Assembly: GCA_001788565.1 (NCBI GenBank)
Contig: MGCX01000010.1
Span: 1-36,518 of the forward strand
DNA: 36,518 bases
Direction of reading: 5' to 3'
Source: Candidatus Saccharibacteria bacterium RIFCSPHIGHO2_12_FULL_49_19
GTDB lineage: Bacteria > Patescibacteriota > Saccharimonadia > Saccharimonadales > UBA10212
The position numbers and the translations under genes are program-made. The notes beneath the pieces are model-generated. The model was given only the letters and a program-made list of their open reading frames with translations, was not told where the DNA came from and ran no database searches. This document shows, one piece after another, positions 9,078 through 17,728 of the stretch. The stretch's first letter is position 1. Each line of letters opens with the position of its first letter.

Positions 9078-10061
9078 TTATCCTGTCCTTTGGTGCCGGT
9101 GATTCATTAACAGGTGGTGGGCGGCCATGGCGATGTGGTTATGGGTCAGCCCAAAATGTTTAAGAAGTTCTTCGGGTTTGCCTGATTCGCCAAAGCGGTC
9201 ACGGACCCCCACCCGGACTAGTGGTGTCGGCAGCTGTTCAGATAAGAGCTCGGCGACTGCACCCCCTAATCCGCCGTTGATCTGGGCTTCCTCAGCTGTT
9301 ACTACCAGCCGGGTTCGTGCTGCGCTATCCAAAATCATATCCGAATCCAGCGGCTTGATTGTTGGCGCATGGATTACCTCGGCGCGTATGTAATCCTTGG
9401 CTAGCATCTGTGCCGCCGCCATAGCCTGGTAGGTCATTGTGCCGGTTGAGACAATGGTGACATCGCTGCCCGGCCGAAAAATAAATGCCTTACCGATAGC
9501 AAAAGGTGTGTTGTCAGTAGTAATCACCGGTGTTGCTTCGCGGGTCAAGCGGATATAGTTGGGTCGCTCATCAGTAGCCATGGCCAAGGTAGCCTTAGCG
9601 GCTTCAACCGAATCAGCCGGCGCCAGCACAACCATATTTGGTAAGGCCCGCATTAGCGCTATGTCCTCAAGCATCTGATGAGTAGCTCCGTCAGCACCGA
9701 CACTGATACCAGCATGGGAGCCGGCAATCTTCACCGGCTGATCATTTAGGCATATTGTGGTACGAATCTGCTCCCAGTTGCGACCCGGACTAAAGGCCGC
9801 GTAGGAGCTGACAAAAGGAATCTTACCCATCGCCGCCAGCCCTGAACCAACGGTCACCAGGTTCTGCTCAGCTACACCGACTTGGATGAAACGTTCCGGA
9901 AAGGCATCGGCGAAGAGATTCATCCTAGTTGATTCCGTTAAATCGGCACACAGTGCTACGACATTCTCATGACGTTTACCAGCTTCCAACAGCCCTTTGC
10001 CGAAACCCAGCCGGATATCCTCTTTATCTAACTCACCTCTGGCAAGATGCATCTCGGTCAC
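9078..10061 (-). CDS. Transketolase, C-terminal (pyrimidine-binding) subunit
   Basis: 327 aa; FIQVGVAEQNLVTVGSGLAAMGKIPFVSSYAAF, HAGISVGADGATHQMLEDIALMRALPNMVVLAP. Confidence 0.95.
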   Translation of the reverse strand: MTEMHLARGELDKEDIRLGFGKGLLEAGKRHENVVALCADLTESTRMNLFADAFPERFIQVGVAEQNLVTVGSGLAAMGKIPFVSSYAAFSPGRNWEQIRTTICLNDQPVKIAGSHAGISVGADGATHQMLEDIALMRALPNMVVLAPADSVEAAKATLAMATDERPNYIRLTREATPVITTDNTPFAIGKAFIFRPGSDVTIVSTGTMTYQAMAAAQMLAKDYIRAEVIHAPTIKPLDSDMILDSAARTRLVVTAEEAQINGGLGGAVAELLSEQLPTPLVRVGVRDRFGESGKPEELLKHFGLTHNHIAMAAHHLLMNHRHQRTG

Positions 10062-15641: not shown

Positions 15642-16331
15642 ATGATAATTATCGGTCACCGCGGTGCTAAGGGTTTGGCTCCGGAGAACACCTTGGCCGC
15701 TGTAAAAACGGCTCTTAACCTCGGAGTCGACGAGATTGAAATTGATGTCCGGGTAACTAAGGATAGCGTCGTAATTCTCAACCACGATCCGTTCATACCC
15801 GGGCATCTAGGCCAGGAATTCTGGATAACCCATCACACCTACTCTGAGTTAAAGGAACACAAGCCTGATCTTGCTACGCTCGATGAAGTCATTAAGCTGG
15901 TCCGGCGCAAAAAAACGCTATTAGTCGAGGTAAAGCCCGACGTCAACATCGAACCGATAGTCAAATTAGTTAGACAGTATCTAAACAAAGGCTGGAAATC
16001 CAGCGATTTCTTGCTTGGTTCCTTCAGTAAAGAGACTCTGCTGGATCTCAATAGCTCGCTGCCTCAAGTTCAAAAAGTGGTCAATGAGCGGTGGTCCGGT
16101 ATCCGAGCTGTCCGCAGAGCCCGAGCCATCGGGACTAAACGCTTGAGTATGAACCAGCAAGTTTTATGGTCCGGTTATATAAGAATGATGTCGCGCCGCG
16201 GATTTCAAATTTACGCTTACCCGCTTAACGACCCCGGCCGAGCGCGCAAATGGGCCGACAAGGGCTTATTCGGAACAATTACCGATTTCCCTGATCGTTT
16301 TACAAAAGGCCGTCACAAAATTTCAGAGTAG
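15642..16331 (+). CDS. Glycerophosphodiester phosphodiesterase family protein
   Basis: MIIIGHRGAKGLAPENTLAAVKTALNLGVDEIEIDVRVTKDSVVILNHD; start trimmed from the 15453 ORF because the extra N-terminus is antisense to the PPase gene. Confidence 0.92.
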   Translation: MIIIGHRGAKGLAPENTLAAVKTALNLGVDEIEIDVRVTKDSVVILNHDPFIPGHLGQEFWITHHTYSELKEHKPDLATLDEVIKLVRRKKTLLVEVKPDVNIEPIVKLVRQYLNKGWKSSDFLLGSFSKETLLDLNSSLPQVQKVVNERWSGIRAVRRARAIGTKRLSMNQQVLWSGYIRMMSRRGFQIYAYPLNDPGRARKWADKGLFGTITDFPDRFTKGRHKISE

Positions 16332-17323
16332 CTGCGCCGGTCGGTCTTCATTGATCGGCGGGGTAACTCCAGACGCTTTCGCGCCGGGATTTGATCCAAG
16401 TACTCACGGATGGTCAATGCCGCGGTAGCTCCCTCACCGACCGCACTGGCGATCTGCTCGGTAGCACCGGAACGGACATCTCCGGCGCAGAAGACTCCCA
16501 AAACGTTAGTACCAAGATCCGAATTAGTTTTCACAAAACCCCGCTCATCGAGTTCAACTCCACTGCCGTCCAAGAACTTAGTATTAGGACTTAAGCCCAC
16601 GAAAACAAATACTCCGTCGGTTGGGAACTCGACCTTTTGACCGGTTGTTTTATCAGTGCCGATGACCTTGGTAACTTTGCCGTTTTCACCAACTATTTCA
16701 TCCGTTGCGGTATTAAAGTGCACCGTTATTTTGTCAGTGTGTTTAGCTTTTAGTTCATCCTGTAGTACCTGGCTGGCCCGAAACTCCGGCCCGCGTACCA
16801 GCATGTCTATGTGGCTGGCAAATTTCGTTAAAAACATACCTTCCTGAACCGCGGAGTTGCCTCCACCGACCACCACCAGACGTTTGTCGCGGTAAAAGGC
16901 TCCGTCGCAAGTCGCGCAGTAGTGAACGCCTTTGGCGTAATACTCCATCTCTCCGGTAACACCGATTTTTTTATAGTCATTACCCGTGGCAATCAACACG
17001 GCCCGAGCTTCAATTTCACCGTCGTGAGTTTTTACCAACTTATTATCACCCTTGGAGCCAATTGATAATACTTCATCCAGTTCAATCTTGGCCCCAAAAC
17101 GCTCGGCTTGGGCGCGCATCGCTTCGCTCAACTCCATCCCCGACACTCCCTTGGCAAAACCCGGGTAGTTATCAATCCAATCAGTGACTGCGGCCAACCC
17201 TCCGATGGCGCCTTTTTCAATCAGCAGTGTGTCGATGTCTTCACGTGACGCATAAAGCGCCGCCGAAAGCGCCGCTGGTCCGGCCCCAACAACAACAAGG
17301 TCGCGGACCTTGCTATCTTCCAT
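16313..17323 (-). CDS. trxB: Thioredoxin reductase (TrxB-like FAD/NAD(P) oxidoreductase)
   Basis: VVVGAGPAALSAALYASRE, HYCATCDGAFYRDKRLVVVGGGNSAVQEG, GVFCAGDVRSGATEQIASAVGEGATAAL; ORF extends to 17344, MEDSKVRD start chosen. Confidence 0.95.
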   Translation of the reverse strand: MEDSKVRDLVVVGAGPAALSAALYASREDIDTLLIEKGAIGGLAAVTDWIDNYPGFAKGVSGMELSEAMRAQAERFGAKIELDEVLSIGSKGDNKLVKTHDGEIEARAVLIATGNDYKKIGVTGEMEYYAKGVHYCATCDGAFYRDKRLVVVGGGNSAVQEGMFLTKFASHIDMLVRGPEFRASQVLQDELKAKHTDKITVHFNTATDEIVGENGKVTKVIGTDKTTGQKVEFPTDGVFVFVGLSPNTKFLDGSGVELDERGFVKTNSDLGTNVLGVFCAGDVRSGATEQIASAVGEGATAALTIREYLDQIPARKRLELPRRSMKTDRRSYSEIL

Positions 17324-17372: not shown

Positions 17373-17484
17373 CCTAGCACCTAGCAACTGTTATTTTTGG
17401 CACCTCGGAAGCACCAAATGTGTTAAAACTAAACATATTTGGTGACCCGCACGTGCCACGAAATAATGGTTGCTAGATGTTAGG
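17373..17484. repeat. 112-bp nested inverted repeat / cruciform between glutaredoxin-like gene and trxB
   Basis: Outer arms 17373-17403 and 17453-17484 (27 of 32 aligned columns match); inner arms CACCAAATGTGTT (17412-17424) and AACATATTTGGTG (17432-17444), 12/13 complementary; symmetric 8-nt internal loops. Confidence 0.85.
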
Positions 17485-17728
17485 CGATAGCGGGGGCTAA
17501 CTGGGAAAGGTTATACCCCACAACTACTTTTTTGGTGTCGTCTTGTTTAGTAATCACTGTAATAGGTACGGTCAGCGATCCGCTTAATGACAAGGCCTCG
17601 GCTTGTCGCTCGGGATGCTCCTCCAAGTTTACTATCTCGTAATTTAAACCCTTGCTGTCAAGATAGCGCTTGACCATCCCGCAATAAGAGCAAGTATTAG
17701 TAGTATAGATGGTGATGTTAGTAGCCAC
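17480..17728 (-). CDS. Glutaredoxin/NrdH-like redoxin
   Basis: 82 aa; YTTNTCSYCGMVKRYLDSKGLNYEIVNLEEHPE...GSLTVPITVI; GTG start with GAGGAGG SD. Confidence 0.9.
   Translation of the reverse strand: MATNITIYTTNTCSYCGMVKRYLDSKGLNYEIVNLEEHPERQAEALSLSGSLTVPITVITKQDDTKKVVVGYNLSQLAPAIA

Follow-up and report, generated by a model that had tools for sequence, protein, structure and literature searches.

A hairpin between a redoxin gene and trxB in a Saccharibacteria genome is probably one copy of a miniature mobile palindrome with private paired arms

Introduction

What is a 112-nt nested inverted repeat doing between a redoxin gene and trxB in a member of the Saccharibacteria? These organisms have very small genomes, and little is known, to our knowledge, about the mobile non-coding DNA that they carry. 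The repeat lies near the middle of a 36,518-nt stretch of DNA, referred to here as the window, and a first-pass annotation had offered three readings of it: a MITE-like palindromic element, a structured RNA of the plus strand or an attenuator controlling trxB. We examined the folding of the hairpin, its copies in other genomes, the covariation of its helices and the junctions at which it is found. The account that we favour, with a probability of about two in three, is that the hairpin belongs to a family of non-autonomous, miniature mobile palindromes of Saccharibacteria, which we designate family A.

Results

The hairpin is stable on both strands and lacks the marks of a terminator

The nested inverted repeat at 17373-17484 contains every part that had been described, namely the outer arms, the 8-nt internal loops, the 13-bp inner stem and the 7-nt loop. 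These parts and the two flanking genes are as follows.

17373-17403, plus strand: outer 5′ arm, private to this copy; its last five letters, GGCAC (17399-17403), are part of the conserved core
17399-17457, plus strand: conserved 59-nt core, with a second copy in the genome that is 90% identical; covariance-model match of 89.8 bits
17404-17411, plus strand: 5′ side of the internal loop, 8 nt, CTCGGAAG; TCGGAAG nearly invariant in alignments
17412-17444, plus strand: inner stem-loop of 13 bp with a 7-nt loop; stem 17412-17424 / 17432-17444
17445-17452, plus strand: 3′ side of the internal loop, 8 nt, ACCCGCAC; ACCCG-A nearly invariant
17453-17484, plus strand: outer 3′ arm, private to this copy; GTGCC (17453-17457) is part of the core
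17480-17728, minus strand: small glutaredoxin-like (redoxin) gene (Pfam Glutaredoxin, 2e-16), with its stop codon inside the right arm of the element
16313-17323, minus strand: trxB, thioredoxin reductase-like (Pfam Pyr_redox_2, 1.2e-47), the next gene downstream of the redoxin gene

The redoxin stop codon occupies 17480-17482 and so falls within the right arm, as had been noted. The hairpin is real and its stability is far above chance: the plus strand folds at -60.5 kcal/mol (shuffle mean -26.3, z -9.5) and the minus strand at -57.1 kcal/mol (shuffle mean -30.1, z -7.4), with none of 200 shuffles as stable in either case.

A long and stable hairpin located between the redoxin gene and trxB could be taken for an intrinsic terminator of the former or an attenuator of the latter, but the T-run expected after the stem is missing on both strands, and a terminator scan is empty at this position. 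Moreover, the motif strand of the element is antisense to trxB, the redoxin-trxB junction of relatives is devoid of a family A element, and one relative (G040) has two copies of the element within its rplJ-rplL spacer. Attenuation of trxB is unlikely because there is no terminator-like site and because the junction in relatives does without the element; taken as a whole, a role as terminator or attenuator is highly improbable, and the earlier suggestion of an attenuator finds no support. Once transcribed, the redoxin message would nevertheless gain a long 3′ hairpin just past its stop codon, whichever strand is considered. The redoxin-trxB spacers of two relatives (loci L005 and L017) hold a different hairpin, which starts at the redoxin stop codon, has its own loop motif and shares ACYTGCGCGYTTCRTTCA / CTCAYTMCARTGCTCRGY around a variable stem.

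Family A has few copies in scattered carrier genomes

By BLASTN of the hairpin, the 687-kb host genome (G000) proved to hold the core once more, at C43:22223-22281; this copy is 59 nt long, 90% identical and directly preceded by the stop codon of what we take to be a peptidyl-tRNA hydrolase-like gene, named by eye from its sequence. The core is also present in the relatives G040, G011 and G023. A covariance model (R1) built from five copies found carriers among 80 near relatives only in these four genomes, and in 380 genomes sampled from the phylum, where filters were stricter and fewer candidates were scored, it returned nothing besides the host genome. An order-wide sample of 393 genomes added five further carriers (G469, G484, G493, G597 and G627). 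In total, nine carrier genomes (9 of the 393 sampled in the order) hold about 20 copies, of which 16 are strong, at one to four per genome; the carriers belong to different families of the order, and most of their relatives are without the element. The hairpin is thus not single-copy. A pattern search of genome contigs gave ten matches, of which nine lack the family A fold and are attributed to chance, the tenth being a copy already known. The core had no matches in phage and plasmid sequences, and the single pattern match in IMG/VR was rejected as a member of the family, since it does not fold like the hairpin.

The core covaries and its internal loops are conserved

On the motif strand, which is the plus strand in the window, the order of parts is outer arm, GGCAC, [CA]TCGGAAG, inner stem-loop, ACCCGNA[AC], GTGCC and outer arm, and the letters conserved among copies in the internal loops are TCGGAAG and ACCCG-A. 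Standard pairs make up 93.5% of cells in an alignment of 16 copies, and 18 of 27 modelled pairs show two-sided change (71 cells), counts that lean towards structure because the alignment was fitted to the covariance model. None of 500 shuffles reached any of five measures of covariation, and pairing fell to 27-56% in a control in which partners were slid against each other. Two-sided changes between copies affect 8 of the 13 modelled pairs of the inner stem, the second pair of which is a G-U wobble in 13 of 16 copies. The compensatory changes are therefore strong, and they support the structure proposed for the plus strand.

The preference for that strand is a separate matter. The first-pass annotation had remarked that most arm mismatches would be G-U wobbles in a plus-strand RNA, and across the family G-U does exceed A-C on this strand (26 versus 6). 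Half of the G-U cells, however, come from the one conserved wobble, and without this column the excess is 13 versus 6, which is not significant; the preference for the plus strand thus depends mainly on a single conserved wobble.

Strong covariation, conserved internal loops, the conserved wobble and a location directly past stop codons are also what might be expected of a functional structured RNA or 3′-UTR element, such as a protein-bound processing or stabilising hairpin, that is inherited vertically, frequently lost and not mobile. The contexts of the copies, described next, sit poorly with such an element.

Copies adjoin unrelated genes and are missing from syntenic junctions

Nearly all copies begin at most about 60 nt past the stop codon of the upstream gene, after genes that are unrelated to one another. 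With respect to that upstream gene, the orientation of the motif strand is antisense in about ten copies; in about seven it is sense. Relatives offer junctions without the element. In relatives, rplJ and rplL are about 20-40 nt apart; in G040 the spacer measures about 300 nt and contains two inverted copies. The G493 genome was rebuilt for comparison of its junctions with those of its congener G469: four insertions in G469 correspond to syntenic junctions in G493 without the element, one insertion in G493 is missing from G469, and at these empty sites the hairpin and both arms are absent. We conclude that the copies are insertions, because syntenic junctions in relatives lack both hairpin and arms. 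At the rpe-tkt junction the element is present in G011 and its core is absent from G002 and from the window genome, the spacers being short in the window genome and others. For G627, the spacers of its congener G050 are too different for an empty site to be read. As the compared genomes are 20-30% divergent, the ends of insertions are not base-exact, and with ends defined to this degree no target-site duplication was found in six young copies.

As judged from these comparisons, the empty sites, the position after stop codons and the mixed orientation speak for an inserted element rather than for a cis-regulatory signal. An immobile structured RNA would have to accommodate not only the mixed orientation and the unrelated host genes but also a patchy distribution (9 of 393 genomes) and empty sites inside one genus, and we consider it unlikely. 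It is possible, as an alternative to mobility, that the elements are very old and have been lost many times.

The rpe-tkt junction seems, from its sequence in different genomes, to tolerate insertions. In G015 (locus L108) about 700 bp that are absent in other relatives lie between rpe and tkt, with TACGATCGTA palindromes close to both ends.

The outer arms are private to each copy yet paired

The outer arms differ in every copy, even where the cores are about 90% identical within one genome. When each 5′ arm was compared with all 3′ arms, its own 3′ arm was the best partner in 19 of 19 copies, with scores of 24-52 for own pairs against a mean of 12.5 (sd 5.3, maximum 32) for 342 cross-pairings, a test that is largely independent of the model-fitted alignment. 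In young copies the arms can be perfectly paired over 20-30 bp, and in some, such as copy L136 of G484, over more than 25 bp. Two copies in G627 that are 2.3 kb apart (L138 and L142) hardly differ in the core and the adjoining parts of the arms; further out they diverge abruptly, and beyond this point each of them stays paired.

Several sources of the arms were considered. Viruses were rejected, as two arms had no match in IMG/VR. An origin elsewhere in the host genome was also rejected, since the arms of the window copy and of the C43 copy have only partial, chance-level matches there. Derivation from the target was rejected at the G469 sites, where neither arm is present in the empty site. 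At the rpe-tkt junction of G002 lies a sequence that resembles the left arm without its partner and ends in GGCAC; it keeps the idea of target-derived arms alive and, judged by its sequence, may be what is left of an element or else the target as it was before insertion. As to whether the core sits nested at the centre of palindromes from other families of the genome, the arms of the window copy resemble TAGGT-type repeats only loosely.

A special case of mobility would have the arms arise as an inverted duplication, through fold-back copying (self-primed or by template switching) of flanking sequence. Arms that are unrelated between copies and yet perfect over 20-30 bp in L136, the L138/L142 pair and the left-arm-like sequence in G002 are consistent with this, but both arms are missing from the G469/G493 empty sites, a search of the G484 genome allowing three mismatches found no third copy of the L136 arm, nor was there one in IMG/VR, and the L138/L142 pattern could also result from gene conversion limited to the core. 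Most carriers, furthermore, have no reverse transcriptase: this enzyme was discarded as a partner of the element, being found in only two of nine carriers and present also in non-carriers. Fold-back copying of flanking sequence is possible, then, and on balance improbable.

A RAYT transposase is a poor candidate for the mobilising factor

The host genome has one RAYT-like Y1 transposase gene (C34:8931-9545), and the two inverted copies in G040 are reminiscent of REP doublets, so that family A might be of the REP/REPIN kind, with a Y1 (RAYT) transposase as its mobiliser. The gene is flanked on both sides, however (C34:8907-8931 and 9572-9596), by a different 23-bp hairpin, TTTCAGAGGAACGTCCTCTGAAA, which is unrelated to family A, and the carriers speak against the idea as well: Y1_Tnp was not found in G023 and G040, nor was a protein similar to the host RAYT found in G493. 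Mobilisation by RAYT is accordingly very unlikely. The flanks examined, whose annotation was not exhaustive, yielded no recognisable transposase next to the copies.

Other hairpins in the genome and its relatives

The window genome has several other palindromic spacer families, and family A may be one of several hairpin families in the order. A low-complexity, CAATG-rich hairpin of 130 nt at 315-455 of the window is one member of a family with about ten copies genome-wide. A nine-copy family (C4:33395, C8:7343, C11:7017, C12:2950, C14:7042, C21:4062, C22:2176, C25:763 and C44:9143) has the core CCTGAGC..AGTCTGTAATCAGATT..GGAGCTTCAAG, mostly within GCCCCG/GGGG arms; its stems apparently covary and its architecture is that of family A, with a different loop motif. 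The short palindrome AAATACTTGACTAGTCAAGTATTT occurs at about 20 sites (for example C26:17381 and C35:5049), often a few bases past stop codons and sometimes inside predicted reading frames. A further hairpin family, AAAAAGTGTGCGCTCTAC / GGCGCTAGCAACCCACTTTTT, is found at C23:7949, C28:12925 and C11:13773, with a half copy at C43:22143, just left of the second family A copy. Beside the G469 copy, a second hairpin (L139:1649-1740) has similar outer letters, ACTAAGGCACCTC / AGTGCCGAGGG, and a different inner part; from its sequence it perhaps forms a subfamily together with the G627 copies. Finally, positions 1-95 of the window match the beginning of contig C26, read as its reverse complement, without a single difference; the two contig ends were probably broken at a repeat.

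Discussion

The reading of the hairpin as a copy of a mobile palindrome draws on the second copy in the genome, the patchy distribution, the covariation, the conserved G-U wobble, the copy-specific pairing of the arms, the empty sites and the variety of gene contexts and orientations; the low copy number and the failure to find a target-site duplication or to recognise a flanking transposase count against it. Family A is apparently undescribed, judging from Rfam, where the window had no match at the gathering threshold and only sub-threshold matches, mostly to miRNA-like hairpins, and from a limited literature search for Saccharibacteria palindromic repeats or ncRNA, in which nothing relevant was found.

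Among known systems, integron attC sites have variable sequence and a conserved folded structure whose unpaired bases are recognised on one strand. Family A likewise joins a conserved fold to variable sequence, but its copies are single and dispersed, with no cassette array and no conserved GTTRRRY/RYYYAAC core sites; GTTAGG-like ends occur in a few copies only, where they overlap gene ends. The element is short, non-coding and polymorphic in its insertion, as a MITE would be, and the further copies and empty sites bear out this part of the first annotation, which combines here with the plus-strand structure that the covariation supports. It cannot be classed as a classical MITE, since no terminal inverted repeats are common to the copies, whose arms are private; nor was a target duplication found in six young copies, where the ends of insertions are inexact.

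REP/REPIN elements are small, non-autonomous palindromic spacer repeats with predicted folds in ssDNA or mRNA and compensatory changes in their hairpins (PMC3116915). Family A shares the small size, non-autonomy, spacer location and compensatory changes, but differs in that no link to a RAYT was found, there are one to four copies per genome, and sequence conservation lies in the centre, flanked by private outer arms. Its copies do not flank the resident Y1/RAYT gene. REP elements are also grouped into GTAG and CGTC super-families by a conserved terminal tetranucleotide tag (PMC3733652), and the ends of the family A hairpins have no conserved letters. ERIC/IRU and Correia/NEMIS repeats, of 107-155 bp, lie near genes, are transcribed with their neighbours and can alter mRNA stability (PMC2229807). 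Family A is also a short repeat adjoining genes, but its copies have only the 59-nt core in common, whereas those repeats share sequence over their full length. With neither RAYT association nor common terminal repeats, family A fits neither the REPIN nor the ERIC-type definition. It is best read as REP/ERIC-like in its behaviour, with private paired arms in each copy.

Because the internal loops are conserved and the helices covary, we infer that a folded single strand, DNA or RNA and here the plus strand, may be recognised by a trans-acting factor through the internal loops. The location just after stop codons would reflect either a preference of insertion for such sites or tolerance of insertions only there. 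If mRNA stability or processing were affected, this would, by analogy with ERIC and NEMIS, be a by-product; these are precedents for inserts that change mRNA stability or RNase III cleavage (PMC2229807). Very tentatively, family A could represent a class of mobile hairpin in which the core is propagated and the arms are made anew at each insertion, by fold-back synthesis or by insertion into the centres of palindromes. We know of no described bacterial miniature element that uses such a route.

The clear covariation, the insertion polymorphism and the conserved core with private paired arms point to a mobilising factor. The core provides a defined substrate with which to seek this factor and to look for effects on operon mRNAs, for example at the rplJ-rplL spacer. 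For Saccharibacteria in general, a striking intergenic hairpin should be checked for empty sites before it is called regulatory.
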